Below, piece after piece: positions 6,091-44,826 of a DNA stretch of 64,000 bases; the first letter of the stretch is position 1, and every line of letters begins with the position of its first letter. A program made the translations under genes and the position numbers. The notes under the pieces are model-generated. The model ran no database searches. It was given only the letters and a program-made list of their open reading frames with translations, and had not been told where the DNA came from. Source of the DNA: Paraneptunicella aestuarii (lineage in GTDB: Bacteria; Pseudomonadota; Gammaproteobacteria; Enterobacterales; Alteromonadaceae); assembly GCF_019900845.1 (NCBI RefSeq), contig NZ_CP074570.1, forward strand, positions 744,001-808,000, given 5' to 3'.

Positions 6091-6206
6091 ATCGGTTTAA
6101 TGGGTATCAACCTGTTTTTTCTCAAGGGGCTATTATAGACCAAGGGGGGCATAGAGGCATTAATAAATAGAAATCTGCATTAATTAAAAGGCTTCTACTT
6201 AAGTCA

Positions 6207-6785
6207 TCAAGCAAACTTTTGCTTTGCTTGTGTGCTATCTCTAGCCCATAGCTTTGCGGCAAGCAATCCTGATATGAGTCCAAATAAATGTGATTCCCAG
6301 GATATAAAGGATTGTAATGGCAACACGCCAAAGATCAGTCCACCGTAAAAGAATGCTACCAACAGTGAGATACCAATGAGTTTGGGTTTTTTACTGAGAA
6401 AACCCGCCAGTACCAGAAAACCAAAGTATCCATATACTAACCCGCTTGCTCCCAGGTGAAAGGCTGAACGGCCAAATAACCAGACTAAAACGCCGGTTAG
6501 CGAGATAATCAAGAGTGTAACTATCCAGAATCGACCATGTCCGTATTGCAACAACAAAAAGCTAAATAAGCATAGTGGAACGATGTTCGACAGGTAATGC
6601 CAGAAACTGCCATGAATAAAGGGGCTAACAATAATGCCTGCAAGTCCTTGTGTTTCCCGTGGGAATAGGGCGAATTGATTTAGCATTCGTCCAGTTAACA
6701 GGTTAATCACTTCCAATCCTGTTATCAGGAAGAATAATCCCAACACAATTCTGAATGAACTTGATGAGGTGAGACGGTGTTGCAT
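6207..6785 (-). CDS. rhomboid-family intramembrane serine protease
   Basis: The 192-residue polytopic protein carries the rhomboid signature. FIHGSFWHYLSNIVPL gives the N-terminal His/Asn region, GASGLVYG holds the catalytic serine, and SWESHLFGLISG supplies the catalytic histidine. Six membrane segments fit the minimal bacterial rhomboid fold. These enzymes cut substrates within the membrane; the substrate here is unknown. It follows the yjfC-like gene by 84 bp on the same strand, so it may be the last member of that envelope operon. Confidence 0.9.
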   Translation of the reverse strand: MQHRLTSSSSFRIVLGLFFLITGLEVINLLTGRMLNQFALFPRETQGLAGIIVSPFIHGSFWHYLSNIVPLCLFSFLLLQYGHGRFWIVTLLIISLTGVLVWLFGRSAFHLGASGLVYGYFGFLVLAGFLSKKPKLIGISLLVAFFYGGLIFGVLPLQSFISWESHLFGLISGLLAAKLWARDSTQAKQKFA

Positions 6786-6869
6786 AATCCATATTCCTTT
6801 AATTCGGTCAGACTATATTAGAAGTTGTACGCTTGAGTGCCTATGGTTGATTTGTTACAGGATGATTTA

Positions 6870-8033
6870 TTACAAGATGATATGAGGTAAATATCTCGAC
6901 ATATCCTGTGTAATGGCATTGCTGTCTTCGCGAATAGAGATCCCCGCTGCTTCGTCGCCAATTAACCATGAACCGATCAGTGTGTGATTACCGTTGAACT
7001 GAGGCAGTGGATACCATTCTTGATAGATATAACCTTCTTCACCATAAGGCCCTGGAGTTGATGTAATTACTTGCTTTCCTTGTATGATTTCAATGTTCGA
7101 ACCTTCTCGTGAGAAAAGGGGCTTTTTCACCAGCTTGCCAGCGTTAGCTTTTGCCAGATCTTCTTCAAACCATGCGGGTAAGAGGTTAGGGTGATTAGGA
7201 AAACATTTCCACAACATAGGCAAAAGCGCCTTATTGGACAAGATGCTCTTCCACATGGGTTCCAACCAATAGATTTGAGCGTCTTCAATATATTGTCCGA
7301 ATTCTTCTCGAAACATAAACTCCCATGGGTAGAGTTTGAACATGGCGCGGATAGGATGGTTGTGAAAGTCGGTGAAAAAGCCTTCTTCCGACAAACCGAT
7401 ATCTTCAATGAACACAAATGGCGTGTCGAACCCTGCTTCTGATGCGCAGTCTTGCAGGTATTGCACTGTACCTCTGTCTTCTTGCGTGTCTTTGCAGCAA
7501 GCGAAGTGCATTTCTTCAATTTGATAGTGCCGGGAAATCGCGGCAAAACGGGCAACCAGCTTTTCCTGTACCGAATTGAACTGGTCAGATCCTCTGCTCA
7601 GCAGCCCATTATCGACCTGATTTTCCAGCCATAACCATTGCCAGAATCCCGACTCATAGAGGCTTGTCGGAGTATCGGCATTGTTTTCGTATAATTTCGC
7701 AGGGCCTTTACCGTGATAAGCCAAATCAAGGCGTGAATACAGGCTGGGATCCTGAGCTTGCCAGGAATCAGCTATTGCTTGCCAGTAAGCTTCAGGAATT
7801 GCGAACTTCTGCAAAAGTTGCTCATTGCCGACTACGCGATCAACAATTTCCAAACACATCTGATGCAGTTCTTCTGTTGGTGCTTCAATATCATCTTCGA
7901 TTTGTTCCAGTGTGAACTGGTAATAGGCTGATTCGTCCCAGTAGGGTTCGCCATGCATGGTGTGGAAATGAAAGCCAAACTCGTTGGCTTTTTGTTTCCA
8001 ATTTGGTCGTTCTGCAATAGGCAGTCGTATCAT
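6870..8033 (-). CDS. yjfC: glutathionylspermidine synthase-like ATP-grasp protein (YjfC/YgiC family)
   Basis: The 387-residue protein matches the C-terminal synthetase half of glutathionylspermidine synthase, as in E. coli YjfC and YgiC. Typical segments are DLAYHGKGPAKLYENNADTPT, ESGFWQWLW, the DIGL/PIRAMFKLYPWEFM stretch and PLFSREGSNIEI, which corresponds to the ATP-grasp nucleotide site. Members are thought to form an amide between a peptide and a polyamine, but YjfC and YgiC have no settled substrate. It closes the operon that begins with the DUF2170 gene. The DUF1190 lipoprotein gene directly upstream is its usual partner (ygiB-ygiC, yjfM-yjfC). Confidence 0.9.
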   Translation of the reverse strand: MIRLPIAERPNWKQKANEFGFHFHTMHGEPYWDESAYYQFTLEQIEDDIEAPTEELHQMCLEIVDRVVGNEQLLQKFAIPEAYWQAIADSWQAQDPSLYSRLDLAYHGKGPAKLYENNADTPTSLYESGFWQWLWLENQVDNGLLSRGSDQFNSVQEKLVARFAAISRHYQIEEMHFACCKDTQEDRGTVQYLQDCASEAGFDTPFVFIEDIGLSEEGFFTDFHNHPIRAMFKLYPWEFMFREEFGQYIEDAQIYWLEPMWKSILSNKALLPMLWKCFPNHPNLLPAWFEEDLAKANAGKLVKKPLFSREGSNIEIIQGKQVITSTPGPYGEEGYIYQEWYPLPQFNGNHTLIGSWLIGDEAAGISIREDSNAITQDMSRYLPHIIL

Positions 8034-8074
8034 AAACTCAATGTATCCCTATTCTTGTTCCCTATTTCTCTTAG

Positions 8075-8752
8075 CTAGCCGCCCCAACCACCTTTAGAGC
8101 TGCCTTTGGAGCTACTCCAGGATGATTTAGCTCGCACTGATGAGCCGAAACCGCCTCGGCTTATCGTACGAGTTACCGTTGGTTTTGGGGTAAACGCTTT
8201 GGGGCTTACCTTTTTCTTACGCATACGGTAATCACCGTAATCGTAGCCATCGGCACTAACCCAGCGATAACGATAAGGCGAACCATAGGAGTATGAAGTA
8301 AACAGTGGGGAAGAATAATGGCGGTTTGAGAATAAACCGCTGACCATGTAACCCGCCATAAAGGGCATAAACCAGGATTGACCGTTGTCGGAACGATAAA
8401 CAACACATTGATTATCGCCAAAGTCTGTTTCACAGTCTTTTTGGTTTTGGAATTTTGGCGCAGTTCTGGAAGCCTCTGCTACCGCTTGTTGGTACGCCGC
8501 ATCGCACGACGCTGAGTATTCCGGGTGTTGACTCTTACATTCATCCAGAGAAGCGAAAAACATGGCTTCTTGTTTGTCATCAGAACAAGCGGCAAGCATG
8601 ATTGATGACACACCCAATGCCAGAGGTTTGGCTGTAAATGCCTTGCGCATTTTGGTCAGATTTATTGTATTACTGCGTTTTGACGATTTGGTGTCTGATT
8701 CAGGATGATTATCTTGTATTAACGTCCGTTGTTTAGAATTGCACTTATTCAT
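8075..8752 (-). CDS. yjfM: DUF1190 lipoprotein (YjfM/YgiB family)
   Basis: This protein of about 225 residues has a long polar N-terminus, then KPLALGVSSIMLAAC, a lipobox with a lipidation cysteine. Next come a DUF1190 core (DDKQEAMFFASLDECKSQHPEYSASC) and a Ser/Gly/Lys-rich tail ending GSSKGGWGG. FWMPLMAGYM in YgiB corresponds to SWFMPFMAGYMVSG here. I chose the ATG at 8752 because AGGAG lies 8 bp before it; an upstream GTG would overlap that site. The lipid anchor after a long leader is typical of the family. Function is unknown, but the gene travels with the ATP-grasp gene that follows. Confidence 0.87.
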   Translation of the reverse strand: MNKCNSKQRTLIQDNHPESDTKSSKRSNTINLTKMRKAFTAKPLALGVSSIMLAACSDDKQEAMFFASLDECKSQHPEYSASCDAAYQQAVAEASRTAPKFQNQKDCETDFGDNQCVVYRSDNGQSWFMPFMAGYMVSGLFSNRHYSSPLFTSYSYGSPYRYRWVSADGYDYGDYRMRKKKVSPKAFTPKPTVTRTISRGGFGSSVRAKSSWSSSKGSSKGGWGG

Positions 8753-8770
8753 CAACTTCACTCCTTTTGC

Positions 8771-31250: not shown

Positions 31251-31337
31251 GCCCAGGTGGTGAAATTGGTAGACACGCTAGCTTCAGGTGCTAGTGGCCT
31301 CACGGCCGTGGCGGTTCAAGTCCGCCCCTGGGCACCA
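31251..31337 (+). tRNA. leuV-like: tRNA-Leu (anticodon CAG)
   Basis: The 87 nt gene folds into a class II cloverleaf. The acceptor stem is GCCCAGG with CCTGGGC, the anticodon stem is CTAGC/GCTAG around the 7 nt loop TTCAGGT, giving CAG. There is a variable arm (GGCCTCACGGCC), the T loop GTTCAAGTC, and an encoded CCA. It lies to the left of the polymerase/tail region; no duplicate of its 3' end was noticed at the right side of that region. Confidence 0.96.
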
Positions 31338-31407: not shown

Positions 31408-31749
31408 ATGATGAGCAATAATCAGTCAGATCCTCTACATGGAATAACCCTTAAGATGATGTTAACTGAGCTGCAAGCCGAACTTGGTTGGCAAGGACTG
31501 GCAGATAGAATCAATATCAATTGTTTTAGTAATAATCCCAGCCTTAAATCCAGTTTAACCTTTCTGCGTAAAACGCCTTGGGCGAGACAAAAAGTGGAAC
31601 AACTGTATGTCAAAACCAAGGGATTAAGCGTTAAAAACACCCCGACAGCCAATATCGATACTCATTCAGACTCAAGCGAGAATAAGCCAGTTATGGAAAA
31701 TCCTTGGCAACATTGGGCTCTACCCAATAAGCGGGGATCTACCCAATAA
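31408..31749 (+). CDS. VF530-type (DUF2132) DNA-binding-like protein
   Basis: The 113-residue protein contains the DUF2132 core: DPLHGITLKMMLTELQAELGWQGLADRININCF, then NNPSLKSSLTFLRKTPWARQKVEQLY. The C-terminal 40 residues are polar and probably disordered. A structure of the Vibrio fischeri member VF530 suggested a DNA-binding fold. The ATGs at 31408 and 31411 are equivalent choices. It sits between tRNA-Leu and the phage-type RNA polymerase. I treat it as a host gene because the family is a common chromosomal one. Confidence 0.85.
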   Translation: MMSNNQSDPLHGITLKMMLTELQAELGWQGLADRININCFSNNPSLKSSLTFLRKTPWARQKVEQLYVKTKGLSVKNTPTANIDTHSDSSENKPVMENPWQHWALPNKRGSTQ

Positions 31750-31960
31750 GGCTTTACCCAATAACCGCACAATAGAATCTGACCGTTAATGATAATGAGT
31801 CAGAAAACGCCTTTCTCCGAATCTCATTCTCTCCCTTAAACATCTATTCCCTCTTTGTAATGTGATGGAAAAACCACCGCGATAAGTGAACTGTTTCACC
31901 CTCAGTTTGTGCTTTGTTGTCCGTAAATTTGCCCCATTATTTCGATGGTTAGGTAAGTGT

Positions 31961-34393
31961 ATGGTGCAGATATCCGAGCTGGAACGTATTCAGGTTGAGC
32001 TTGAACGAAGAGGGCGTCACTTGGGGGCTTTCAGATACGACAATAGAACGGATGTTGCATTAAAAGGAAATCGGGCGAACGATACCAGTTTTGGCGTTGT
32101 TTTGATCGGCAAGTATGTGGGTGAGTTTACCGATGTTTTAAACGAGGTTTCGACTAAACGTAAAGGGTATCGAGTCCCTGCGGTTTTAGGGCTTATCGAA
32201 GAAGTTGAGCTTCCCATTGTTGCTATGGTGACCTTGTCATCCATTATGGGTTTTCTTACAACCTCAATTTCCTCAACCAGAATGGCTAACCATATTGCTG
32301 ATAACCTGTTTCATGAGGTGCAAAAAGCGAAATTGGGCAAGGCGGCAAAAAATCATTATGGTCATTTGGCAAAAAATGACAGAGCTGCCGGGAAAGAAGC
32401 GGTTAATGCCCTGGAGTATGTTGCTTCTCTGAGTGGCGACTTAATCCAGCCGTGGAGCGAGAAAGACAAAACCACATTGGGGCGTTTATTGATTGAATTA
32501 GTGCGCCAAAAGTTGCACTGGATCGATATTCAACAAGGCGAACTTAAAACCAAATCTAAAACCAGACAAAACGCGCCAGAAATTGTCGTTGCCAAGCCAG
32601 AAATTAACGAATGGATTACCCAACATCGTGAAGAGGTGCGCTTATTGTCACCCGTCTATCTGCCAATGGTTGTACCACCCCGGGATTGGTCGTTAGAGAC
32701 TATGTATAACGGGTGCTATTTAACCGATGAGCAAGCGCCGGTATCTTTTATTAAGCGCAAGAATCGGGTTCAAATGGCTCGGCTGAAGCAGGAAAATCCG
32801 GTTGATGTATTCAAGGCCGTTAACGCCATTCAATCTACGGCGTGGCGCATTCGGCGTCCGGTGCTAAACCTGTTAAAGCGTATTCAGGATGAAAAGCTGG
32901 AGCTGAATTTACCTATTTCTTCCATGCCACCGCAGCAGGATATTCTTATCCCCGATGAGGCTCCATATCATGTGCGAAAAGCCTACCTTAATCAAAACCG
33001 TGAACTCGCCAACTTACGTGCGGTTGTCGGGGTGAATATTGCTAACGCTGAAGAGTTTGCTGAATTTGAACGTTTTTATATTCCTCATCACCTTGATACG
33101 CGAGGTCGGGCTTATCCCATTCCTGCATTAAACCCTCAAGGTGCGGATTATATTAAAGGCTTGCTGGAATTTGCTGATGGCAAGAGAGTCGGAGATGCAG
33201 GTATTTTCTGGTTGAAAGTTCACGCTGCTAATTTATTTGGTGTTGATAAGGTTTCTTTTGAACAGCGTGTGCAGTGGGTGGATGAACACTGGCGGAGTCT
33301 ACTTGAATCGGCCTTGTTTCCGCTGGAGTGTTTGTTTTGGACACAGGCGGAAAAGCCCATTCAGGCGTTTGCGGTTTGCCTGGAATTATTAGGTGTTGCC
33401 ATGGAAGGGGCTGATTATGTTTCCAGAATGCCTGTGGCGTTGGATGGTTCATGCAGTGGTTTGCAACATTTGGGGGCGGCATTTCGTTGCGATGTTACAG
33501 GCAAGGCTGTGAATCTGGTTGATTCGGAGTGCCCTAACGATATTTACCAGGATGTTGCCGATAAGGTGCAAGAGCTGCTGACTAAAGAACTATCGTCCGA
33601 CAATAAAGCTTTGGCTTCCCAATGGTTAGCATTTTGTGGCGGTAAAATTGAGCGCAAGATCACCAAGCGACCCGTGATGACTTATCCTTATGGCTCAAAA
33701 GTGCCGGGATTTACGCAGCAACTGTTGGATGATGTGATTAAACCCGCTATGCAAAACGATCCCGATTCAGTGCCCTTTGACAACCTTCGCTTGTCTGCGC
33801 AGTATTTGGCAAAACTTATCGAACAAGCGGTTTCAGCGACAGTATTAAAAGCGTCTGAAGCGATGGAATGGATGCAGAAAATGGCCGCAGCCATTGCTGC
33901 GGGGAACAAGACGATTCATTGGACGACACCCTTGGGTTTTCCCGTGGTTCAGGACTATCGCAAGCTACGTAGTCGGCAAATCAACTCAGTGGTGTTTGGA
34001 ACCCGATTGCAATGTCGTGTGGCAGAGGTTGAAGATGCTATCGACACCCGAAAAATGGTGAATGCCATTAGCCCTAATGTGGTTCATTCACTGGATGCAA
34101 CGCATCTGTTGTTAACTGTGTTAAAAGCCGAGCGTGAGGGGATCAACCAATTTGCCTTGGTTCATGATTCTTTCGCTACCTATGCGGCTGATACCGAGCG
34201 CTTTTTTGTCATTATTCGGGAAGCCTTTGCTGAGCTATACAAAAACGATGTATTTGCAGCATTGGAAGCCGAGTTTAAAGCGCAAGCAGTGACAAACTTG
34301 AAAAGTAAAACGCAGCATACCTTACCGAAGTTGCCTGCAAAAGGTCATTACCAGTTAGAGTCGATAATTCATTCATCCTTTGCCTTTGCGTGA
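31961..34393 (+). CDS. single-subunit (T7-type) DNA-directed RNA polymerase
   Basis: The protein of about 810 residues is a phage/mitochondrial-type RNA polymerase. Motif A is LDGSCSGLQHLGAAF, with the metal aspartate near residue 495. Motif B is KITKRPVMTYPYGSK, with the equivalents of T7 K631 and Y639. Motif C is FALVHDSFATY, with the HD pair near 735. PNVVHSLDATHLLLT precedes motif C as in T7. All catalytic residues are kept, so it should be active. I chose the ATG at 31961, after AGGTAAG; the frame opens at 31886 with 25 less convincing residues. The T7 enzyme has 883 residues. It heads the tail-gene region and would need its own promoters, most likely in the structured segment downstream. 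Confidence 0.95.
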   Translation: MVQISELERIQVELERRGRHLGAFRYDNRTDVALKGNRANDTSFGVVLIGKYVGEFTDVLNEVSTKRKGYRVPAVLGLIEEVELPIVAMVTLSSIMGFLTTSISSTRMANHIADNLFHEVQKAKLGKAAKNHYGHLAKNDRAAGKEAVNALEYVASLSGDLIQPWSEKDKTTLGRLLIELVRQKLHWIDIQQGELKTKSKTRQNAPEIVVAKPEINEWITQHREEVRLLSPVYLPMVVPPRDWSLETMYNGCYLTDEQAPVSFIKRKNRVQMARLKQENPVDVFKAVNAIQSTAWRIRRPVLNLLKRIQDEKLELNLPISSMPPQQDILIPDEAPYHVRKAYLNQNRELANLRAVVGVNIANAEEFAEFERFYIPHHLDTRGRAYPIPALNPQGADYIKGLLEFADGKRVGDAGIFWLKVHAANLFGVDKVSFEQRVQWVDEHWRSLLESALFPLECLFWTQAEKPIQAFAVCLELLGVAMEGADYVSRMPVALDGSCSGLQHLGAAFRCDVTGKAVNLVDSECPNDIYQDVADKVQELLTKELSSDNKALASQWLAFCGGKIERKITKRPVMTYPYGSKVPGFTQQLLDDVIKPAMQNDPDSVPFDNLRLSAQYLAKLIEQAVSATVLKASEAMEWMQKMAAAIAAGNKTIHWTTPLGFPVVQDYRKLRSRQINSVVFGTRLQCRVAEVEDAIDTRKMVNAISPNVVHSLDATHLLLTVLKAEREGINQFALVHDSFATYAADTERFFVIIREAFAELYKNDVFAALEAEFKAQAVTNLKSKTQHTLPKLPAKGHYQLESIIHSSFAFA

Positions 34394-34401
34394 TTTTGCT
34401 T

Positions 34402-34432
34402 ACCCCATTCGTTTTGCAAACATGAATGGGGT
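34402..34432 (+). terminator. hairpin after the RNA polymerase gene
   Basis: A perfect 9 bp stem ACCCCATTC/GAATGGGGT has a 13 nt loop and is followed by a T-rich but broken tract, 9 bp past the stop codon. It is a weak or partial terminator. Confidence 0.6.
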
Positions 34433-34546
34433 TACAAGCTTCTGATTTTTCTGCTTTTCCATTTTATTTCCTTCGAGTTTCATTGCTTTATTTTTTTAAC
34501 TGTCGCTTCACTTAGGAAAACCTTCGCTCACTCTAAAATTCAGTGT

Positions 34547-34665
34547 GAATTGTTAAGGCCAGCCATGAACAACCTTGTCCATTTTTTCCGGCAGCGGCAA
34601 CTGACCACTTGTCTCCACTCTCCCCGGTTGTGCGTTGTCTCGTTTGTGACTGGCCTTAACAATTC
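34547..34665. repeat. 16 bp perfect inverted repeat enclosing 87 bp
   Basis: GAATTGTTAAGGCCAG (34547-34562) is exactly complementary to CTGGCCTTAACAATTC (34650-34665). No target duplication flanks it, so a MITE is not supported. The long perfect arms suggest a folded RNA or a protein-binding cruciform. Confidence 0.75.
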
Positions 34666-34736
34666 GTATTGAGTTCTTGTGAGAAAGGCTTAATACGAAG
34701 ATGTGTGTCAAAAATGAATGTGTTGATGCATCTTTT

Positions 34737-34759
34737 GAGACCTTCGGGTCTCCTTTTTT
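34737..34759 (+). terminator. strong terminator inside the control region
   Basis: The stem GAGACC/GGTCTC has a TTCG tetraloop and is followed by CTTTTTTC. It is not downstream of any recognised coding gene on this strand, so it probably ends a non-coding transcript. Confidence 0.85.
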
Positions 34760-35009
34760 CAAGCGAAACCTCACAGTAGAAACGATAAATAAACGACATT
34801 CATGCGCTTGCCATGCTCTTTTTATGAGTCCGATTGGCAATCTTAAGTGTGAACGGCTTTTACAACGCGATTCGCTTTCATCGCTCAGTCCTCCGTGATT
34901 GAGATTACACCAACCTTCTCCAATGGCTTTTGCCCCGGTTTTTGGAGGCATTTAACTCGGGATTTGTTGTCTCGAATTAAGTTTAATTTCCGCACATAAA
35001 GGTTCTTAA

Positions 35010-35951
35010 ATGAAATTTAAATCAAAAACTTTGCTCGCCAAATTAGAAGCGAGCTATGGCGTAGATCCGTTACCGATTGGTACGGATGGTATTCAAACCA
35101 AAAACTTGCAGGTAAGCCCTTATATCGGCGATACCATTTCTCGTGATCTGGACAGAGAAACTTTGGGTGCTCAGGAACAGATCAACATCAATCCACATGT
35201 CGAAGTGACGTTTGAAGTGGAACTGGCTGGCTCGGGTACGGCTGGTAATGCACCGGCTTATAGCTCTTTGCTTAAAGCTTGTGGCTTTGAAGAAACAGTC
35301 AATGCCGGTGTTGATGTTTCTTATCAGCCAGTAAGCACTAACTTCCCATCAGTAACTTTGTATTACTTGCACAGAAATGATGCGGGTGGTTTCCAGCAGC
35401 AAACCATTACCGGTTGTCGCGGTTCGGTGTCTATTACCGTTGATCTTGCTGGTATTCCTGTACTGCAGTTCCGCTTCCTGGGCTTTTATCAGGCTCCATC
35501 TGATGTAGCTGATATTACGGTTGATAACTCTGATTTTGTTGATCCGGTTTATGTGTCTTACGACAACACCAGCCTGACTATCGGAGCTTACACCGCTAAA
35601 GCGTCGGCTTTCTCTATCGACATGGCTAATGAGCTAAGCATGAGAAATGTTACAGGTGCGCGTTATGTTAACTTGTTCGATCGTGCGCCTTCAGGTCAAA
35701 CAACCGTTGATGCACCCGCTTTGTCAGCAAAAGACTTCTATAGTCTGGTTGAGTCTCACAATGGTGTCAGCAAGGAATCTGTGGTGTTAACGCACGGTAC
35801 CTTGGCTGGCAACATTGTTGAAATCTCTGCTCCGCAAGTTCAATTCAACAGCATCACTCATGCAGACAGCAGCGGTGAGCTGGCTTACCAATTGGGTATG
35901 TTGTTCTTACCTGCTAATGGTAACGACGAAATCGTATTGACCTTTAAGTAG
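35010..35951 (+). CDS. phage-type tail tube protein
   Basis: The 313-residue protein is beta-rich, begins MKFKSKTLLAKLEASYGVDP, and reads like siphophage tail tube proteins. It has a double-domain pattern: first domain about 1-170, and a second with VDAPALSAKDFYSLVESHNG and the final LAYQLGMLFLPANGNDEIVLTFK. It comes first in the tail module, immediately before the chaperone pair, which is the canonical position of the tube gene. No head-tail connector precedes it. A hairpin downstream could reduce read-through and keep this abundant protein in excess. Confidence 0.8.
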   Translation: MKFKSKTLLAKLEASYGVDPLPIGTDGIQTKNLQVSPYIGDTISRDLDRETLGAQEQININPHVEVTFEVELAGSGTAGNAPAYSSLLKACGFEETVNAGVDVSYQPVSTNFPSVTLYYLHRNDAGGFQQQTITGCRGSVSITVDLAGIPVLQFRFLGFYQAPSDVADITVDNSDFVDPVYVSYDNTSLTIGAYTAKASAFSIDMANELSMRNVTGARYVNLFDRAPSGQTTVDAPALSAKDFYSLVESHNGVSKESVVLTHGTLAGNIVEISAPQVQFNSITHADSSGELAYQLGMLFLPANGNDEIVLTFK

Positions 35952-35995
35952 TCGTCAGCGCGATTTATTCAAGCAAGTTAAAAATTTCAAAATTC

Positions 35996-36014
35996 AGGGG
36001 CGAATTGAGCCCCT
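35996..36014 (+). terminator. attenuator-like hairpin after the tail tube gene
   Basis: A 6 bp stem AGGGGC/GCCCCT with a GAATTGA loop lies between the tube and chaperone genes. A short T-poor tail suggests partial termination or mRNA stability control. Confidence 0.4.
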
Positions 36015-36050
36015 TCATACCATTCCATAATTCATTGAGGAGTTAGCTAA

Positions 36051-36413
36051 ATGACTTTCAAATTTGTTCCTGTCGATACGCTGAAAAAAGTCATCAAAAT
36101 TGAAATCCCGGGCGATTTCGGAAAAGTCACCAAAGCCGATTTCGAGGCGACGTTTAAGCGTTTACCTGTGAGTCAGGCCAGAGATTTGATCAAACAAATT
36201 CAGGATAAAACGGCTGACGAAGACAAAGTGCTTCGTGAAAGTGTTGTCGACATTGATGGCGTGACCGATGGTGAAGGCAATAAAGTTGAATTCTCCTCAG
36301 AGTTACTCAGCCAGTTGTTAGAGGAATCCTATATTCGAGGCCCTCTTTTGGCTGGATTTATGGATGTTAACTACAGCCTTGACAAGTTACGACAAAAAAA
36401 CTCCAAAGGGTAG
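36051..36413 (+). CDS. tail assembly chaperone, short form (gpG-like)
   Basis: The 120-residue acidic helical protein sits between the tail tube and tape measure genes, the place of lambda gene G. A GAGGAG site precedes the ATG. The last codons CAA AAA AAC contain the slippery heptamer, and the normal frame stops 12 nt after it, at 36411-36413. In lambda-like phages a minority of ribosomes shift frame to make the G-T fusion that loads tape measure protein. I recognise no close family by sequence alone; the assignment rests on position and the frameshift architecture. Confidence 0.8.
   Translation: MTFKFVPVDTLKKVIKIEIPGDFGKVTKADFEATFKRLPVSQARDLIKQIQDKTADEDKVLRESVVDIDGVTDGEGNKVEFSSELLSQLLEESYIRGPLLAGFMDVNYSLDKLRQKNSKG
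36395..36401 (+). other. programmed -1 ribosomal frameshift site (A AAA AAC)
   Basis: The heptamer is in the correct zero-frame phase (xxA AAA AAC). Slipping back one base gives AAA AAA then CTC CAA AGG. That frame is open for 110 codons to the stop at 36731-36733, joining the two chaperone frames into a protein of about 227 residues. Confidence 0.88.
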
Positions 36414-36733
36414 GGAAAGCCTTCGCTAATCCGTCAGGTGGACGCAGTGCCACAGACGCTGACGAGATGGCTTTATTAAAGGGCTTGTCTCCAAAATTTG
36501 CGCAAGAGCGAGAACAAAATTTGGAGATTTGGCCTGAAACCCTACCCGCTATCCGGCTATTTGCTAAGTCCATGACCCAGTGGAGAGCTGGCCCCACCGG
36601 TATCATTGGTCTGGACTACAACGCAATTAACCTGCTGATGGACTACGACGCAATCCCAATGGCAGAGCGTGGGGAGTTAATGTCTGACATTGCTCAATTA
36701 GAGATAGGCTACCTCCAAGCTATGAGGCGTTAG
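36401..36733 (+). CDS. tail assembly chaperone, T extension made by -1 frameshift
   Basis: This frame has an internal ATG at 36467 (88 residues), but no good ribosome binding site precedes it. The -1 frame is open without interruption from the slippery site. I therefore read it as the C-terminal part of a GT-type fusion starting at 36051. The segment LLKGLSPKFAQEREQNLEIWPETLPAIRLFAKSMTQWR is followed by GIIGLDYNAINLLMDY. This is the style of short siphophage chaperone proteins. The stop is directly followed by the tape measure ATG at 36735, the usual arrangement. Confidence 0.8.
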   Translation, partial: LQRVGKAFANPSGGRSATDADEMALLKGLSPKFAQEREQNLEIWPETLPAIRLFAKSMTQWRAGPTGIIGLDYNAINLLMDYDAIPMAERGELMSDIAQLEIGYLQAMRR

Positions 36734-36734
36734 A

Positions 36735-39700
36735 ATGTCGAATCAATACCAACATGGCCTCGCTATAGAGGACATGCAAACAACACAAATTTCACAGGAG
36801 TCAGATAATATTGACTCCACATTTTCCAAACTAGCAGGCAAAGTCAATCTGATTGGCGCGACATTTTCGACTGCTATTGACGTAATGCAAGCTTTTGGTT
36901 CCGTGATGCAAACGGAAGTCATTGAGCAACTAAATGTGCTTTCCGACACTGTTGGATTGTCGATGGATTCCATGAGCACATGGTCTTATGCCGCCAGTAC
37001 ATTGGGTGTATCGTCCTCTGATCTCGGCGCTATTTTTCAAGACATGAACTCTAAAATGGGCGAGTTGTCAGCCACTGGTGGTGGTAAGGCTAAAGCTTTA
37101 TTTAATGAGCTGAATCTGTCTATTGATGAGTTTAAAAAACTGGCACCGGAACAGCAGATGTTGGCATTTGCCGACAGCGTGGAACAGTTGGGTTCGCACG
37201 GTGAGAAAGTCCATTTTATGGAGTCTTTTGCTCAAGGCTCTTCCAAGCTATTGCCTCTTCTTGAAAGCGGGGCTGAAGGCTTAAATAAAATGGCCAGAGA
37301 ATCCAAACTACTTGGATTTTCTCTTAACGACATAGACGCTGAAAAAGTTGAAGGAGCCGCGGAATCATTCCGCATTTTGGGAGGTGTAACCGACGGCTTC
37401 ACACAACAATTTACTGCTAAATTTTCTACTGTATTCCATGGCATGGGTGAGCAGTTACTTGGCTTTTTAGAGCAATTTGGCGGCATGGAATCTATCGCGA
37501 GCTCAGTGTCTAACTTTGTTGTTCAGGCGATTGGTTTTGTCATCGATGCGTTTCATCAACTCAGCATTGTTGCCAAATTTATCGAAATCGGCTGGTTGAG
37601 TCTCGGTGATATTGCTGCCCGAGTGATTGCTGACCAGGCAGATCTGATTTCTCAACTGATCGAAGGCCCTCTGGATCATCTCACTGATTTTATTGGCTTT
37701 ATCATGGATGGCTGGGGTCAGTTATTTGAAGCAATTGGAGACTTTCTTGGTGCATCGGGAGAAAGATTTAGTAATTTCGGTGCCAAGCTTAGGGAAACCA
37801 GCTATGAAGTCGCTAACTTCAATATCAGTTCCGAGGATATCGTCGCAGGGCAGCAAGCTGTTGCTGACAAGCTGGCGAAAAGCACGGAAGAGCTTCAGGC
37901 TATGCGTAAAAGCGCACCGGGCAAAGAATTTGTGGAACGCGTTGAAGCCGCAAATTCTGCTTTGGAGGCTCAGTCTGACACAACTGAAAAGTTAGCTGAG
38001 GCTAACGATAAAGCGCAAAAGAATATCAATAAGGCTGCTGAAACGACGGATGCGCTAACTCAATCGAATAAAGACCTTAAAACTCATCTTGAAAGCACGA
38101 CTGCTGCGACTGAAGAGCAAGCCAAGCAAGCCGACAAGTACACTGAAGCCTGGGAAGGGGCTGTTGCCAGTATTTCTACAGCCTTCTCTGAAGGTTGGCT
38201 GGATATTATCGAAGGCAATGCCAGCGATGTATTTGGCAATATTGCTGACAGCTTCAAAAATATGTTCAAGGAGATGTTGAACTCCAATATTTCTTCTTCC
38301 ATTAAAGGTTTTTTCCAAAATGCATTTGGTGATTTAGGTTCCATTTTTAGTGGAGGCAGTGGTGGTGGTTTTAACCTTGGTTCTCTCTTGGGAAGCTTTG
38401 GTGGTGGCAGTGGCGGCGGTTTTGATATTGGCTCCCTTTTTTCTATGGGCGATATGCTGTTTGGCAGTGGTATTGGCGGTTCCATCATGGGGATCGGGAA
38501 TACTATCGCTGGATTTGGTTCTTCGCTTGGATTGAGTTCATTAGGCGCTTTTGGCAGCGGGATTGGTTCTACCGGTGCAATACTGGGTACACAGGGAGTG
38601 TTTGGTGGCTTTGGTACCGCTCTCGGTAATGTCGGATCAATATTTGGCTCTGGTTCCATCATGGGTGGAATTGGTGCCGCGTTGCCTATTGTTGGCCTTG
38701 TCGCTGGTGCGGCACAACTCGTTGATTCTATTTCTGGCGGTAAGTTGTTTGGCACCAGTTGGAAATACGATGATCACGGAATTAATCTTGATTACTCCAA
38801 TGGTGAATTTTCAGGAAATAACTACTCAACCCAAGTAAAACAACGTTCTCTGTTTAGAGGGCGCAAGTGGCGCACCGAAGAAACGCCTTTGGATGCGGCT
38901 GTTGCCGACCAGATGAACAATTATTTCTCTGGCATTGAAAACCTTATCACCGGTGCTGCAAGCCAGTTGGGTATTACGGAAGTTACCAAAACGGTTTCCA
39001 GTGGATTCTCTAATGAGGATTATGATCGCGGTGGCAATCGATTTGGAAACCGCTTTAAGGAATGGTTCAGCAATCTACCCGATTCTCATACGACGACAGA
39101 AAGTCTGGAAGACTATCTGGCAAACTTCTCTTCCAGCTTTGATCTGAGCCTTAAGGACAAAAGCGATGAAGAAGCACAGCAAGCGATTCAGGCCTGGGCA
39201 GACAAAGCGACTACTGAACTGATTGACGGCGTATTCGGCGACATGCTGGATGGCATGTCGCTTGAAGGTGAGAAGCTGGCCGATACCTTGGGTCGAGTCA
39301 TGGCACAGTTGTCATTGGTGGATCAAGGTTTTAACTCTATTAACTTGAGCCTGGAGCAATTAGCTGCCAGTGCCGGAGTGTCTGAGTTAGCGTATTCCAA
39401 CGATGTGGCGCAAGCTGCGGGTGGCGCTGACCGTCTGGCTGCGTTGTTGCAAGGTTACCAGGCTAATTTCTTCTCGGAAGAAGAATTGTTGAGTCGTACT
39501 TTGGAAAGTATGGCGGATCAGGTGAAAACTGCGCTGGATTCTATTGGATTTACTTATGGTAATGATTTTAGAGCGGAGTTTGAGGCTGCATCGACAACCG
39601 GGTTAGGTGCAGAAGATGTCGTTGCCTGGCTGGAAGCTGGAAACCTGATTGGGCAGTTTGAAGAGATCGCTCAGCAACTGGCTGATATTACAGGTGTTGC

Positions 39701-40121
39701 TTTATCTGAAGTGACTTCTGATCTCATCAATAACGCTGATGTCATTACCGCTGAGGCAACACAGGAAGAACAAGCTGCTGCGGTGTCTGATCCTATTGTG
39801 GCAGAGGTGTCTGGTTTGGCTGAAACCATCAATATGCAAGTGGGTAGTTCTAACGAGCATTTGGTATCTATCGATACTCGTCTTGGCGAGGTTAATACTT
39901 CAATTAACAGCACTTTGGTGGCTTTTTCTGATGAAGTAAAAGGCATCAAGTTGAACCTTGAAGGAGCGATTGCCGAAACTCAACGTCAGGTACAACTCTT
40001 TGCTAATAAGGCGGCGGCAGAAGCTTCCCGGACTACAGCATTGGTTTCTGATGTTGCCAGATTGGTTGCTGAACGCGCCACCTATTACCGACCTGTGATT
40101 GACGACAGAGCATTACTGTAA
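36735..40121 (+). CDS. tail tape measure protein
   Basis: The 1128-residue protein is the longest in the module and sets tail length in phages. The N-terminal half is helical, with hydrophobic stretches near residues 245-330 (FGGMESIASSVSNFVVQAIGFVIDAFHQL). A coiled coil spans about 375-470. A long glycine/serine/phenylalanine-rich segment (about 535-665) with GGSGGG and GIGGSIMGIGNTIAGFG-like repeats could cross a membrane. The C-terminal 450 residues are helical. All these features are typical of tape measures. By the usual rule of about 1.5 Angstrom per residue the tail would be near 150-170 nm (inference). Confidence 0.9.
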   Translation: MSNQYQHGLAIEDMQTTQISQESDNIDSTFSKLAGKVNLIGATFSTAIDVMQAFGSVMQTEVIEQLNVLSDTVGLSMDSMSTWSYAASTLGVSSSDLGAIFQDMNSKMGELSATGGGKAKALFNELNLSIDEFKKLAPEQQMLAFADSVEQLGSHGEKVHFMESFAQGSSKLLPLLESGAEGLNKMARESKLLGFSLNDIDAEKVEGAAESFRILGGVTDGFTQQFTAKFSTVFHGMGEQLLGFLEQFGGMESIASSVSNFVVQAIGFVIDAFHQLSIVAKFIEIGWLSLGDIAARVIADQADLISQLIEGPLDHLTDFIGFIMDGWGQLFEAIGDFLGASGERFSNFGAKLRETSYEVANFNISSEDIVAGQQAVADKLAKSTEELQAMRKSAPGKEFVERVEAANSALEAQSDTTEKLAEANDKAQKNINKAAETTDALTQSNKDLKTHLESTTAATEEQAKQADKYTEAWEGAVASISTAFSEGWLDIIEGNASDVFGNIADSFKNMFKEMLNSNISSSIKGFFQNAFGDLGSIFSGGSGGGFNLGSLLGSFGGGSGGGFDIGSLFSMGDMLFGSGIGGSIMGIGNTIAGFGSSLGLSSLGAFGSGIGSTGAILGTQGVFGGFGTALGNVGSIFGSGSIMGGIGAALPIVGLVAGAAQLVDSISGGKLFGTSWKYDDHGINLDYSNGEFSGNNYSTQVKQRSLFRGRKWRTEETPLDAAVADQMNNYFSGIENLITGAASQLGITEVTKTVSSGFSNEDYDRGGNRFGNRFKEWFSNLPDSHTTTESLEDYLANFSSSFDLSLKDKSDEEAQQAIQAWADKATTELIDGVFGDMLDGMSLEGEKLADTLGRVMAQLSLVDQGFNSINLSLEQLAASAGVSELAYSNDVAQAAGGADRLAALLQGYQANFFSEEELLSRTLESMADQVKTALDSIGFTYGNDFRAEFEAASTTGLGAEDVVAWLEAGNLIGQFEEIAQQLADITGVALSEVTSDLINNADVITAEATQEEQAAAVSDPIVAEVSGLAETINMQVGSSNEHLVSIDTRLGEVNTSINSTLVAFSDEVKGIKLNLEGAIAETQRQVQLFANKAAAEASRTTALVSDVARLVAERATYYRPVIDDRALL

Positions 40122-40132
40122 GGAGCTAACAA

Positions 40133-41527
40133 ATGTCAGATTTTATTAACTGGCTGGAAAGCTTGGATCAGCGACGCACTGTATTGGTGGAAGTGGATTA
40201 TCTCAATGAGGGTGTCTCTGGCACTCTCTATTTAGCCAATCGGCCTTTTGTTTCCCGAGCATCAGACGTTCAACGCTCAATTCCTTATGATGATGTCATT
40301 CTCGGGGGATTAACCTATGGGCGTCGAATGGGCGGACAAGTTTCTGGCTCATTGGGGCTTTCCGTTGGCTCGATCGATTTAGCCGCTTCTAGCGAAATCG
40401 TTATCGCTTCGGGTTATGAGTTTGCAGGTCAGGAAGTACGAGTTTATCTGGGCGATCAACGTTGGGCGCGAAATGACTTTCAACTGGTGGCCGTGCTCAC
40501 TTGTGAGTCCTTGGTTCCCACTGGGCGTACTCAGTATTCATTGAAGTTCCGAACTGAAAGACTGGATTTAAATGAACCATTAAATAGCTCGGTTTTTACC
40601 ACTGGGCCTAATGTGGACGCATTGAAGCCAGTTTGTTTTGGTGATTGTTACAACATTCGCCCGGTTCAGGTAGATGATGCCGGATTAGTTTGGGCTGTGC
40701 ATGATGGCACGGTCGCCTATATTGGCGATGTCCGAGTTGATGGAACCGTTGTTTCAGCCACTAAAGACACTGCCGCAGGTACTATTACTTTGTCGTCCAA
40801 ACCTACGGGTACGTTAACGGCGGACGTGATTGGGGCTGGCGGTATTGATGCTAAAACGATTCTTACTGAAATTCTTCAGCGATTAGGGGGCATTAGTATT
40901 GATACGGTCAGTTTAGATGCGTTGCCTACCGATTCTTTGGGCTTATATAGCCGCTCCGGATTGTCATATCGACAGGCATTTGATGCATTGCTCAAGAACT
41001 TTGGTGGGTTTTGGGGCTTTACCCGATTAAACGTGTTTAAAGTGGGTCGGATCGTTCGTCCTCAAGGGGGTTCATCAGAGTTACTGACTCCGGACGATAT
41101 TATCTTGGATGGTGTTGCTTTCGATCGCCGTATTCGCCCAGCTTCGGTAATCGATCTCAAATACCGGAAAAACTACACCCCCCAAAACGTCAATGGTTAT
41201 GAAGAAGGGTTTTCAACGGTTCGTAAAGAAAACACGGATATCACGTATGTTTATCCGGATGCTGAACTGAAAGAAGCGGAAACCTTACTTTGTTTGAGTT
41301 CTGCCGCTGATTTGGAAGCTGAACGACGCAGAATCTTTTATTCCACGCCATTGAAAGTATTCACTGTGAATGCCTTTGCTTTGCCTTTTGCTTATGAGAT
41401 TGGGCAGGAGATCCGCCTGATTTATCCTTATTTTGAGATGGAAAATGGGGTGGATGCGATTGTGTTGTCTATCACGGATGACCCATTGCAAGGCGTCACA
41501 CAACTAAAGGTGTTAATTGATGGCTAA
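40133..41527 (+). CDS. tail hub / distal tail-like protein
   Basis: The 464-residue protein has a beta-rich N-terminal part with MSDFINWLESLDQRRTVLVEVDYLNEGVSG and LGGLTYGRRMGGQVSGSLGLSVGS. A middle domain has ILTEILQRLGGISID and YRQAFDALLKNFGGFWGFTRLNVFKVGR, which resembles hub proteins. The C-terminus (GQEIRLIYPYFEMENGVDAIVLSITDDPLQGVTQLKVLIDG) resembles late hub segments. The location right after the tape measure fits a distal tail or hub protein. AAGGAGC precedes the ATG at 40133. I cannot name a closer family. Confidence 0.65.
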   Translation: MSDFINWLESLDQRRTVLVEVDYLNEGVSGTLYLANRPFVSRASDVQRSIPYDDVILGGLTYGRRMGGQVSGSLGLSVGSIDLAASSEIVIASGYEFAGQEVRVYLGDQRWARNDFQLVAVLTCESLVPTGRTQYSLKFRTERLDLNEPLNSSVFTTGPNVDALKPVCFGDCYNIRPVQVDDAGLVWAVHDGTVAYIGDVRVDGTVVSATKDTAAGTITLSSKPTGTLTADVIGAGGIDAKTILTEILQRLGGISIDTVSLDALPTDSLGLYSRSGLSYRQAFDALLKNFGGFWGFTRLNVFKVGRIVRPQGGSSELLTPDDIILDGVAFDRRIRPASVIDLKYRKNYTPQNVNGYEEGFSTVRKENTDITYVYPDAELKEAETLLCLSSAADLEAERRRIFYSTPLKVFTVNAFALPFAYEIGQEIRLIYPYFEMENGVDAIVLSITDDPLQGVTQLKVLIDG

Positions 41528-42359
41528 TTCCCGCTTAATATTTAACAATGTCTGGGATGCCGCGACCCTAACCCAAAGCGCGGGCACTTTCGAAACTCAC
41601 CTCCCCATCAGCAATACCCAAAAATACAACAATTCCAGAGTCTTTCGCACATCTGACACCCAGGATGTGGAAATCTTGTTTGATTGGGATGAGCCTGTGT
41701 TTATCGAGGCATTGGCTTTGTGGCGTCATAACCTGACCAGCTCGGCTCAAATTCAGTTGCAGTTCTACAACGGAGTGAATCAAACCGGTGATGTCATTTA
41801 CGACTCTGGCATTTTACTGGGTGATGTTCCCAAGAATTTGGGGGATTTGGTGTGGGGTAAAGATCCATTGGGGGTTTCAACCTATACCGGCTGGGAAACG
41901 GCAACACGTTCATTCTGGTTTGATGATACTCATGTTGTTTCATCGGCTCGTTTAACCATTAGCAACCCCGACAACCCTGACGGATATCTCGAAATTGGTC
42001 GAATCTACGCGGGGGAGGCTTTCTCGCCCACTTTCAACGTAGATTTGGGCCATATCTTCAAATGGGAAACGGATGTGAAAAGCAACCCGACTGCGGGGGG
42101 CACAGTGCATACGCTTGATGCTGCGACTTATCGGAAACTCAGTTTTAATTTGTCGCATTTGAGTCCCTCTGACCGAACCAGCTTTGCGGATCTCACCCGA
42201 ATACTCTCTATCCATAAAGATTTCTTTATCTCCTTGCGCCCCAATGTTGGGGGCGCGATTGAGAGAGATTATTCCTTTGCCGCCAAGTTCGAAGAAATTC
42301 CCAGTTTAAAAGCAGAAGCGTCGCGCTATGAGACGCAATGTAAAATCAGAGAGGTTTAG
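41520..42359 (+). CDS. distal tail protein, unknown family
   Basis: The protein of about 279 residues is beta-rich, with a jelly-roll-like N-terminal half: DVEILFDWDEPVFIEALALWRHNL, IQLQFYNGVNQTGDVIYDSG and SARLTISNPDNPDGYLEIGRIYAG. The second half has LDAATYRKLSFNLSHLSPSDRTSFADLTRIL. The first half has the feel of a discoidin-like sugar-binding domain, and similar proteins occur in siphophage tails. The ATG at 41520 overlaps the stop of the previous gene by 8 bp, so translation is coupled. It may be an adhesin or distal tail protein (inference). Confidence 0.55.
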   Translation: MANSRLIFNNVWDAATLTQSAGTFETHLPISNTQKYNNSRVFRTSDTQDVEILFDWDEPVFIEALALWRHNLTSSAQIQLQFYNGVNQTGDVIYDSGILLGDVPKNLGDLVWGKDPLGVSTYTGWETATRSFWFDDTHVVSSARLTISNPDNPDGYLEIGRIYAGEAFSPTFNVDLGHIFKWETDVKSNPTAGGTVHTLDAATYRKLSFNLSHLSPSDRTSFADLTRILSIHKDFFISLRPNVGGAIERDYSFAAKFEEIPSLKAEASRYETQCKIREV

Positions 42360-42365
42360 CAAATT

Positions 42366-42884
42366 ATGTCGCTACTTCAATTCGCCGCAGGCGACAAAGA
42401 TTATATCGACAAGCTCAATCAAATGAGCCAGAACGCCGGAGATACGGCGCAACTTAAAGCTGACACACAGCAAATCAAAGCTGAAACCCAGCAAATCAAA
42501 ACTGACACGCAAGCCATTCAAGACGCCACTCAGCAATTAAAAACCGATGTGGAAGGCATCAAGGCGGCTACTCAGGCTATTGCTGCCGCTGATTTGCTCT
42601 GGCAGGAAATCAGTGTGACTACTCAGGTTAACCACGGTGATTTACTGCTGGCGACCAGCGCTGGTGTTGAGGTAATGCTTGATGACTTGAAAACCAACTT
42701 GGCAGTAGGCCATTGGTTTTCTGTATCCAATGAGTCTGACGGCCTGATTTATGTGAATTCGCGTGCGGATTTGGCCTTGGTCGGCCGCAAGCTGACCGTT
42801 ACTAATGATGATCGCATGGCGATTTCCCCAGGGCATACCTTTACCTTCCGAGCGAAAAGTTTAACTGAATTGAGGATTAATTAA
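42366..42884 (+). CDS. coiled-coil tail protein
   Basis: The 172-residue protein has a short head, then seven-residue repeats from about 32 to 75 (QLKADTQ, QIKAETQ, QIKTDTQ, AIQDATQ, QLKTDVE, GIKAATQ). This predicts a trimeric coiled coil. A beta-rich C-terminal domain follows (about 78-172). The design suits a linker that attaches a fibre to the distal tail. Its stop TAA shares one base with the ATG of the next gene, so the two are coupled. Confidence 0.65.
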   Translation: MSLLQFAAGDKDYIDKLNQMSQNAGDTAQLKADTQQIKAETQQIKTDTQAIQDATQQLKTDVEGIKAATQAIAAADLLWQEISVTTQVNHGDLLLATSAGVEVMLDDLKTNLAVGHWFSVSNESDGLIYVNSRADLALVGRKLTVTNDDRMAISPGHTFTFRAKSLTELRIN

Positions 42885-44773
42885 TGGCTGACTATTTAGA
42901 TAAAAAAGTAATGGGAGGCTTAGGTGCCGAAGCCGTTAAAGTCATTGCACCAAACGTATTCCCCGACATGACAGTAAAAAAGGGAACAGAAGTGGTGTTG
43001 GAGCCTGTTACGGGCAACTACTTCCCGCGCACCTTGGCGGCTTCTGCTATTGGGGGAAGCAATGTACATCAGTCAACCTATTGTTCGGATAATCAAGCTA
43101 ACCGTGCCATTTTAACCAGTGATGGTACCTTGATTGGTATAGGCGCTGGTGAAAATGTAGGAGCTGCTACAAATGCTTGGCGATTAACTCGCTGGCATCT
43201 TTATGCTGACAGCTCCGAAGTTGAGTATGTGGGGTTCTCGAACGTCACTTTAACGGCCAGTTTCTATTACTCTCAGGCGCGATTAAGTGAGTTTGTTGAG
43301 GTGGAACCTGATGTTTTCGTTGCCTTGTTTTTCTCATCGGATATTAAGACGTATCAGGTTGTTAAAGTGAATTATGATAAGTCCACTAAAACAAGTTCCC
43401 TGTCGATTAGCTCAGTTTCTGGGCACACCACGACTTCCAATAATTATCATAGTTATTCTGATATTGTTGCCAATAACGATGGTACATTTTTCGTATTCGG
43501 CATTAACGGGATTTGTGACTTATGGCAGACAATCGACTTGACCCGATTGAACTATCAGTTAAGTACAGGGGCGACTATTTCTAACAGCTCCAACTATAAG
43601 AACATTGATAGCCATAACAATTTCACCAGTGTGTTGCCATTAAGTGATGGTCGTTTTGTTTTTACTAATGGTGGTAACTTATTACTAAGAGAGTGGACTG
43701 GTTCAGCATTTAATGAGTTTGGAACCAATTCTGCGACAGGCGTATACAGCAGTGCGCCTCTGGTAAAAATTGCCACAGATGTGTTTGCCATGTCTTATGC
43801 AAATAACGCGGGTTCCATTAATTGGAAAGTTGTTCAGTACGATGTGGTAACGCAGACGTTGAGTGATGTTGCGGATCAAGTCTTTACTCTGATTAGCCAG
43901 ACTTTAACCAGTACCATACAGGGACAAGGTCGTTATGGAGTTGCTGGTTCTACTTTTATTGGTTGGAATACGGATGAGCTTTACGCTATTCACTTTGACC
44001 CTGAAACCTATAGCATTGCAGATGAATCACAAATTTATATTTCTGGGTATTTGGGAAATCGAGGAAATTTAACTTCATTTGTTATTCGACCTAATGGTCT
44101 CTGTACAAGCTTTATGCTTGGTGGTCATCAGGTTCGTAGTAGTGGTGATGCGGTTTATATGACCTTTAATCGCTTTACTATTGGTAACCTGTTACCCAAT
44201 ATGGCTCCCATTCCTTGCGGTATAGCTTATGCTGATACGACACCAACAGAACTATCAATTTGGGTTGCATCAGTTACCATTCCGGGAGAAAATTTGCAGC
44301 CATTGAGTCTTTATGGCGATAACATTGCTATTACCGCTGATCATGCCATAGCGCTAAGAAATACCCTTTCGATTATTGAGCGATATAGTTATAACTCAGG
44401 TGACTACTCAAAAGCTGGTGTGGCATGCATACCGTCTGAAGAAAGAGCGGCTAATTTCTATGGCGGTTATGCACACAAAAGCACACTTAACAAATTCCGG
44501 GGAGTTCGAGAAAAGGTCAAGGCCGGGGCTTCTTTGACGGCGTATTTCTCGCTTTCTGGAGATGACGGAAATGACTACTCCGCTGCTACTTGGGGGGTTT
44601 GCATGGATGGCTACCAATTATTTTCTCCAATACATTTTTCTGGTAAAAGTGTGAATACATCCACGCCAACTGTATTTGCGCAAGGTGGGTTGGACATTGG
44701 TTGCTTTATTATTTCCAGAAGCTCGGCATACAGAGACACCTATCTGTTTAACAAATTTGAAGTACATCGTTAA
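42884..44773 (+). CDS. tail fibre / receptor-binding-like protein
   Basis: The 629-residue protein begins MADYLDKKVMGGLGAEAVKVIAPNVFPDMTVKKGTEVVLEP, a short leader typical of tail-associated adhesins. A long beta-rich region (about 60-460) follows, with repeated short strands and many Ser/Thr/Asn. A propeller-like series of SDGT, SDGRFVF and NNDGTFFVFG turns is visible. The C-terminus is beta-rich with aromatic residues. It is the last gene of the module before a strong terminator, the usual position of the host-range protein. No enzymatic motif is seen. Confidence 0.65.
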   Translation: MADYLDKKVMGGLGAEAVKVIAPNVFPDMTVKKGTEVVLEPVTGNYFPRTLAASAIGGSNVHQSTYCSDNQANRAILTSDGTLIGIGAGENVGAATNAWRLTRWHLYADSSEVEYVGFSNVTLTASFYYSQARLSEFVEVEPDVFVALFFSSDIKTYQVVKVNYDKSTKTSSLSISSVSGHTTTSNNYHSYSDIVANNDGTFFVFGINGICDLWQTIDLTRLNYQLSTGATISNSSNYKNIDSHNNFTSVLPLSDGRFVFTNGGNLLLREWTGSAFNEFGTNSATGVYSSAPLVKIATDVFAMSYANNAGSINWKVVQYDVVTQTLSDVADQVFTLISQTLTSTIQGQGRYGVAGSTFIGWNTDELYAIHFDPETYSIADESQIYISGYLGNRGNLTSFVIRPNGLCTSFMLGGHQVRSSGDAVYMTFNRFTIGNLLPNMAPIPCGIAYADTTPTELSIWVASVTIPGENLQPLSLYGDNIAITADHAIALRNTLSIIERYSYNSGDYSKAGVACIPSEERAANFYGGYAHKSTLNKFRGVREKVKAGASLTAYFSLSGDDGNDYSAATWGVCMDGYQLFSPIHFSGKSVNTSTPTVFAQGGLDIGCFIISRSSAYRDTYLFNKFEVHR

Positions 44774-44800
44774 GATTCTGCTTCTCCATCTTAAGTTATT

Positions 44801-44826
44801 AAGGGAACCTTCGGGTTCCCTTTTTT
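44801..44826. terminator. terminator closing the tail module
   Basis: AAGGGAACC/GGTTCCCTT with a TTCG tetraloop is followed by six T residues on the plus strand. It lies between the tail fibre gene and the convergent aminotransferase gene and can serve both. Confidence 0.92.

Follow-up and report, generated by a model that had tools for sequence, protein, structure and literature searches.

A T7-type RNA polymerase gene next to a headless siphophage tail operon in Paraneptunicella aestuarii, a probable remnant of a temperate phage

Introduction

The chromosome of Paraneptunicella aestuarii (NCBI RefSeq GCF_019900845.1, NZ_CP074570.1), a single contig of 4.91 Mb, carries a gene for a T7-type single-subunit RNA polymerase (RNAP) in front of a siphophage tail operon. 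Genes for a head, for packaging, for an integrase or for lysis are not seen in this block. This raises the question of whether the locus is a tail particle that was domesticated together with a polymerase of its own, or what is left of a phage. A sequence-only reading of the locus favoured the former. T7-type polymerases normally belong to podophages, and their mixture with a siphophage-like tail, together with the clean ends of the block, was taken to suggest an F-type tailocin-like particle or injection device; relatives of the block inside a full prophage were said to speak against it. The stretch of DNA analyzed here (the window) comprises 64,000 bases (positions 744,001 to 808,000 of the chromosome), and positions below are those of the window unless another sequence is named.

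Results

An intact polymerase gene and an intact tail operon

On the forward strand, the block comprises the RNAP gene followed by eight ORFs for tail proteins, and it lies between a tRNA-Leu (CAG) and a VF530 family gene on the left and a gene read as an aminotransferase gene on the right. Its features are the following, with identities given to the counterparts in the prophage G059, which is described below:

31251..31337, + strand: tRNA-Leu (CAG), from a tRNA scan
31408..31749, + strand: VF530 family gene (Pfam VF530, 7e-33)
31961..34393, + strand: T7-type single-subunit RNA polymerase, 810 aa (Pfam, PHROG and PDB matches), 59%
34394..35009, + strand: spacer of 616 bp, apparently non-coding; contains a long hairpin and, at 34737-34752, a stem resembling a terminator
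35010..35951, + strand: tail tube protein (Phage_tube_2), 74%
36051..36413, + strand: gpG-like tail assembly chaperone (PHROG match), 66%
36395..36401, + strand: slippery heptamer A_AAA_AAC for a -1 frameshift from G to GT, the same in G059 and in L053
36467..36733, + strand: DUF1799/gpT part of the frameshifted chaperone, 59% over residues 1-73
36735..40121, + strand: tape measure protein, 1128 aa, 37-39%
40133..41527, + strand: tail hub, 464 aa, with a T5 tail-tip-hub-like fold, 70%
41520..42359, + strand: distal tail or hub-adjacent protein (PHROG 8610, which carries no functional annotation), 76%
42366..42884, + strand: probable coiled-coil linker with three 21-bp repeats, 58%
42884..44773, + strand: putative receptor-binding tail fibre or tip protein, 29-30%
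44801..44822, + strand: hairpin resembling a terminator, closing the block on the right

Judged by its sequence, the polymerase is an intact, full-length T7-type single-subunit enzyme and apparently active. It matches Pfam RNA_pol (E 5e-106) and PHROG 414 (E 4.7e-214), T7 RNAP chains in the PDB align to its residues 7-810, and it contains the motifs DGSCSGLQH (495), KRPVMTYPYGS (569) and HDSF (735), which we take to be the counterparts of the catalytic motifs A, B and C of T7 RNAP. In an alignment with 12 other sequences it exhibits one private change in 178 columns that are invariant in the others (0 to 24 for those 12). For the hub, of which 19 of 22 matches were aligned, no private change was found in 87 invariant columns (0 to 12 for the other 18 sequences), so that neither protein shows relaxed constraint at conserved positions.

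The tail operon (35010-44773), which lies 3′ of the RNAP gene, is likewise intact. Of the nine ORFs of the block, RNAP included, eight were compared with G059; all eight have open reading frames and lengths similar to those of their counterparts, and the ninth, the GT part of the chaperone, is open too. The stretch in the -1 frame between the two chaperone ORFs is conserved in G059, and by this comparison the frameshift is real. The hub gave a model with a mean pLDDT of 86.6, whose best solved structures are T5 tail-tip hubs (TM-score of 0.63-0.67 on the query); a search of solved structures with the sequence profile of the hub found none. Minimal siphophage hubs are treated in PMC13243795. 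The labels "coiled-coil linker" and "fibre" are putative and follow from position and sequence, as neither protein has a family match above the cut-off and the fold model of the fibre was too poor to be used (pLDDT 37). Both a complete polymerase with its catalytic motifs and the succession of tail tube, frameshifted chaperones, tape measure, hub and distal proteins, linker and fibre had been recognized in the sequence-only reading, and all of them were recovered here as ORFs.

Flanks of the block

The tRNA-Leu is the probable side of phage integration, and the RNAP gene also lies behind a tRNA-Leu in G059 and L002. No second copy of the 3′ end of this tRNA was found within the window, nor any repeat longer than 10 bp between the block flanks that were compared; the absence of an att repeat is to be expected if the ends of the block were lost. 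The VF530 gene has relatives in eight of ten related genomes and no match in G059, which suggests that it is probably a host and not a phage gene. The end of this gene is spanned by a 15-19 bp unit, ACCCAATAA, in three imperfect copies arranged in tandem (31715-31765). The clean ends that had been described earlier, with tRNA-Leu and VF530 gene on the left and a terminator-like hairpin on the right, hold up: both fall outside genes, although the lost segment in G059 is only 15% non-coding according to our gene list. The scan for terminator-like hairpins yielded 11 sites, against a mean of 14 in shuffled sequences.

A search for an empty site in the same genus did not reveal the exact one. One genome (G001) retains argR-mdh-yigZ, and in the 17 kb examined there tRNA-Leu is absent and the only aminotransferase is 20% identical; in a second (G034) yigZ adjoins tRNA-Leu (CAG), and in a third (G019) yigZ is present without it. 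A search of ten genomes for the aminotransferase flank, run without a control, gave no match at E 1e-30.

A collinear, complete prophage

A profile of 13 polymerases, taken from 689 matches, led to a prophage of 42,140 bases in IMG/VR, IMGVR_UViG_2888218590_000001 (2888218590_000001; here G059). Its host can be taken to be Pseudoalteromonas sp. THAF3, because its hub is identical to the protein P0126, named FIU82_06120 of that strain. The left end of G059 consists of a pgsA-like gene, tRNA-Gly, tRNA-Cys and tRNA-Leu followed by the RNAP gene, and its right part carries the same eight tail genes in the same order as the window, followed by an integrase. Between RNAP and tail lie 24.6 kb with replication, lysis-like, packaging, head and tail-terminator genes. 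Pfam searches with ten G059 proteins identified SSB_T7, a T7-type primase-helicase, PolA, a GpA terminase, a lambda-type portal, a protease-capsid protein, a tail terminator and an integrase, with a weak head-tail match between protease-capsid and tail terminator, and other ORFs were read as RusA, thymidylate synthase, ribonucleotide reductase, lysozyme and holin.

G059 thus resembles the window in the position of its RNAP gene near a tRNA-Leu, in the eight collinear tail genes and in the slippery site, whereas it differs in being complete, with the 24.6-kb middle, the integrase behind the tail and operator-like palindromes before the RNAP gene. Identities between the two are highest for the distal protein and drop to 37% for the tape measure and 29% for the fibre, which is the most divergent gene of the block. 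GC3 of the RNAP, tube, tape measure and hub genes is 0.59-0.69 in G059 compared to 0.42-0.45 in the window, where the distal and linker genes reach 0.51-0.52 and the fibre gene 0.37.

As the polymerase and the siphophage tail occur together in G059, their combination reflects the make-up of a phage lineage and does not point to domestication, and the argument built on this mixture is not supported. A relative of the block does sit inside a full prophage, which counts against the earlier proposal in the way that had been anticipated there. A chimera of podophage and siphophage parts that was assembled in the host was rejected, as the combination exists in an intact prophage; the structural genes that accompany the RNAP are not those of Autographiviridae (podophages), the window having a siphophage tail and G059 a lambda-type head.

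Genes missing from the block

Compared with this complete and collinear prophage, the block has lost genes required for phage production. A search of the 64-kb window with 31 ORFs of G059, which included two of probable host origin and, from the tail, the tube alone, with a few small ORFs omitted, found counterparts of RNAP and tail tube only. For the remaining 29 the best value was E = 0.008, for a match away from the block. The remaining tail genes were compared in the reverse direction, window against G059. The tail terminator of G059 and its holin-like and lysozyme-like ORFs, the latter two identified by reading, have no match in the window, and the earlier statement that the block lacks capsid, portal, terminase, integrase and lysis genes agrees with these results.

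A tail terminator gene lies just before the tail tube gene in all six viral contigs with a tube relative, G059 included, and portal and capsid genes are present in five of them; the sixth contig starts about 200 bases before the terminator. As terminator, portal and capsid are the usual neighbours of such a tube, the headlessness of the window is an exception, which indicates that it lost the middle of a normal phage. The missing head and packaging genes could alternatively lie elsewhere in the genome and act in trans, as in a satellite or a multi-part phage. The intact tail and polymerase genes would fit such a split element, but searches of the whole 4.91-Mb chromosome with capsid and terminase queries of the G059 type, made without a positive control, gave no match for the capsid and only a chance-level best match for the terminase (E = 0.03), so that this explanation appears highly improbable.

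Control elements and the spacer

Six operator-like palindromes, TCCCAC..GTGGGA, were found in G059. Four of them precede the RNAP gene (positions 1064-1305 of locus L008), and those at contig positions 40054 and 40973 lie in and just 3′ of the integrase gene, respectively. Inverted repeats comparable to these palindromes also precede the RNAP gene of L002, and judged from sequence it appears possible that the palindromes of G059 form a lysogeny switch for a phage RNAP. No palindromes of this type precede the RNAP gene of the window; the operator-like sequence CCCANNNNTGGG occurs once between 30001 and 46500, at 42240 inside the distal gene, and not before the RNAP gene.

G059 further contains a 47-bp motif at three near-identical places (3825-3871 and 4003-4049 of L008, and contig position 18028), with a 33-bp core found at all three (3825, 4003, 18028). 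Two copies lie directly behind the RNAP gene and the third before the late region, which makes the motif a candidate promoter of the phage polymerase. In the window it gives weak partial matches only, and a promoter of this type before the tail genes was rejected. Its local alignment beats shuffled sequences in 92% of cases before the window RNAP gene and in 96% in the spacer, and no ungapped match of the core over 18 of 33 positions exists in the window.

The spacer, which sits where G059 has its 24.6 kb, is present in one copy in the genome, and its reading frames gave no family above the cut-off in Pfam (three frames) or NCBIfam (one frame). It contains a long inverted repeat with 43-nt arms (34528-34684), and a spacer region of 387 nt folds far better than its shuffles (z -6.2). 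One guess would be that the inverted repeat serves RNase III processing as in T7. An integron attC site was considered by comparison with the arm layout of such sites and was rejected, as the order of the two arms of the inverted repeat does not fit and the spacer is single-copy.

Distribution of the polymerase and the hub

In the genome draws, close relatives of RNAP and hub were confined to the own genome. The draws comprised 59 related genomes (searched with the polymerase), 395 genomes of the family (hub), 369 of the class (polymerase profile), and 2 of the genus plus 394 of the order (hub profile), the family, class and order sets being even draws from larger groups. In the family draw (cut-off 1e-10), hub relatives of about 30% identity were also found in 12 genomes, one of which appeared in the order draw (1e-80) as well. 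The profile scans of genome and viral collections used two short peptide patterns each; those of the polymerase profile yielded six confirmed loci among 84,980 species genomes, including Pleionea sp. CnH1-48 (L003), and a scan of the viral collection with the single window polymerase gave no match.

The RNAP relatives of Pleionea sp. CnH1-48 (41-42%) lie at 10001-12400 of L003 and 10001-12406 of L004. The polymerase gene of L003 adjoins an amidase-like gene. In the flanks, about 10 kb to either side, none of the other G059 or window genes used as queries has a relative in L003, and in L004 only an exonuclease was found. A gammaproteobacterial MAG (L002) has an RNAP gene (5787-8765; 55%) behind a tRNA-Leu and genes read as leu-operon-like, and this contig ends soon after.

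Among plasmids the hub was not found, and among 50,697 phage records neither the hub nor the distal protein of the window had a tblastn relative. Tail tube relatives (tblastn) occur in 23 of these records, with at most 39% identity in the 15 listed, and RNAP relatives in 2710, with at most 35% in the 30 listed. Across seven phages or contigs the identities of RNAP and hub are correlated (Mantel rho 0.76, p 0.033), which shows that the pair travels together in the lineage, though not that it does so without heads.

Six contigs, the own genome included, occur in both the RNAP and the hub lists. Comparing the best 120 of 689 RNAP matches with the best 120 of 4533 terminase matches, a terminase of the G059 type was found for contigs 38764 and 31974, and none among these best 120 for the own genome and contigs 826043, 38347 and 19988. 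The contig of 826,043 bases combines RNAP (73%) and hub (87%) relatives. The intact THAF3 prophage served as a control: its own contig (3231996) is listed for the hub P0126 only. Its other two proteins are represented at best by cluster representatives from other contigs, the RNAP by P0009 of contig 10527 (99.4% identical) and the terminase by P0143 of contig 38764 (90.5%). Since contig listing misses this intact prophage, the missing terminase on contig 826043 is weak evidence.

It has been considered that the deletion which joined the RNAP gene to the tail operon created a self-contained switch that selection then maintained, perhaps not in a single lineage but both in the own genome and on the 826,043-base contig. 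If this were true, a small amount of RNAP would drive massive tail synthesis at a locus for tail-like particles. This idea appears rather doubtful and is offered as speculation.

Discussion

The block is best explained as a cryptic, headless prophage remnant of a temperate siphophage with a T7-type RNAP, a reading to which we assign a probability of roughly 0.78. The sequence of events that we infer would have started with a temperate siphophage-like virus that had the RNAP as its first gene and integrated beside tRNA-Leu. Gene order and operator-like repeats in G059 suggest that in the intact phage a repressor would hold the promoter of the RNAP gene, and that upon induction the RNAP would be made and would transcribe the replication, lysis, head and tail genes. 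The lineage of the window would then have lost a middle segment that began just 3′ of the RNAP gene and ended just 5′ of the tail tube gene, the right end beyond the fibre gene, integrase included, and the control region 5′ of the RNAP gene. What remains encodes RNAP and the tail proteins, beginning with the tube and ending with the fibre. Because tail terminator, head, packaging and lysis functions are absent, the block should not make phage and probably releases no tail particles by itself.

Against a remnant speak the lack of any broken gene, the position of the ends outside genes, the constraint, which is not relaxed, and the lack of an att repeat. Intact genes, the kept frameshift site, ends at gene boundaries and conserved sites fit selection, but they also fit a recent deletion. 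Alternatively, the block could encode an F-type tailocin-like particle that was domesticated and relies on its own single-subunit RNAP for transcription of the tail genes, with release through lysis genes elsewhere in the genome and capping by another protein. The phage origin, the headlessness and the intact genes on which this proposal was built have been confirmed, and the same intact reading frames, frameshift site, conserved positions and boundaries can be cited in its favour, as can, weakly in view of the failed control, the 826,043-base contig with RNAP and hub and no terminase among the best 120 of 4533. Of the gene set of F-type tailocins, tube to fibre are present, but the tail terminator is absent, and functional siphophage tails are described as arising after capping by a terminator protein (PMC11784142). 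The holin-like and lysozyme-like genes of G059 are missing from the window as well, and no convincing phage promoter or operator was found there. Among the 395 family and 394 order genomes drawn, a close hub relative exists only in the own genome, contigs 38347 and 19988 equally lack the terminase among the best 120, which weakens its absence from contig 826043 as evidence, and comparative genomics, which had been proposed as a check, revealed no second headless RNAP-tail locus as DNA. The tailocin proposal is therefore considered unlikely, and the remnant reading is preferred.

A precedent for a headless locus of this kind is rhizoviticin of Allorhizobium vitis, which PMC10811719 describes as a headless F-type tailocin that derives from a chimeric prophage and retained early genes. 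Like the block, it is a prophage-derived locus for a non-contractile tail beside a tRNA with early phage genes kept. Yet it has lysis genes, a DUF3168 gene and a LexA-type repressor, none of which was seen in the window block, and active particles have been demonstrated for it (PMC10811719). The precedent speaks for the tailocin proposal.

The combination of polymerase and tail is also found among known siphophages, of which Xp10, Xop411 and OP1 are virulent. These three are named in PMC8541194, where RNAP genes in siphophages are described as very rare, and like the block they have a single-subunit RNAP, as does Shewanella phage KASIA (PMC8541194). KASIA is virulent according to the title of that article, unlike the temperate lineage to which the block belongs. 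Among the papers listed by full-text literature searches, judged by titles and abstract openings, no polymerase-driven tailocin was found.

A T7-type polymerase together with a siphophage tail thus characterizes a lineage of temperate phages that has been little described, in which the RNAP, as the first gene behind operator-like repeats in G059, may be part of a lysogeny switch. If the headless block of P. aestuarii were active, it would be a polymerase-driven tailocin.
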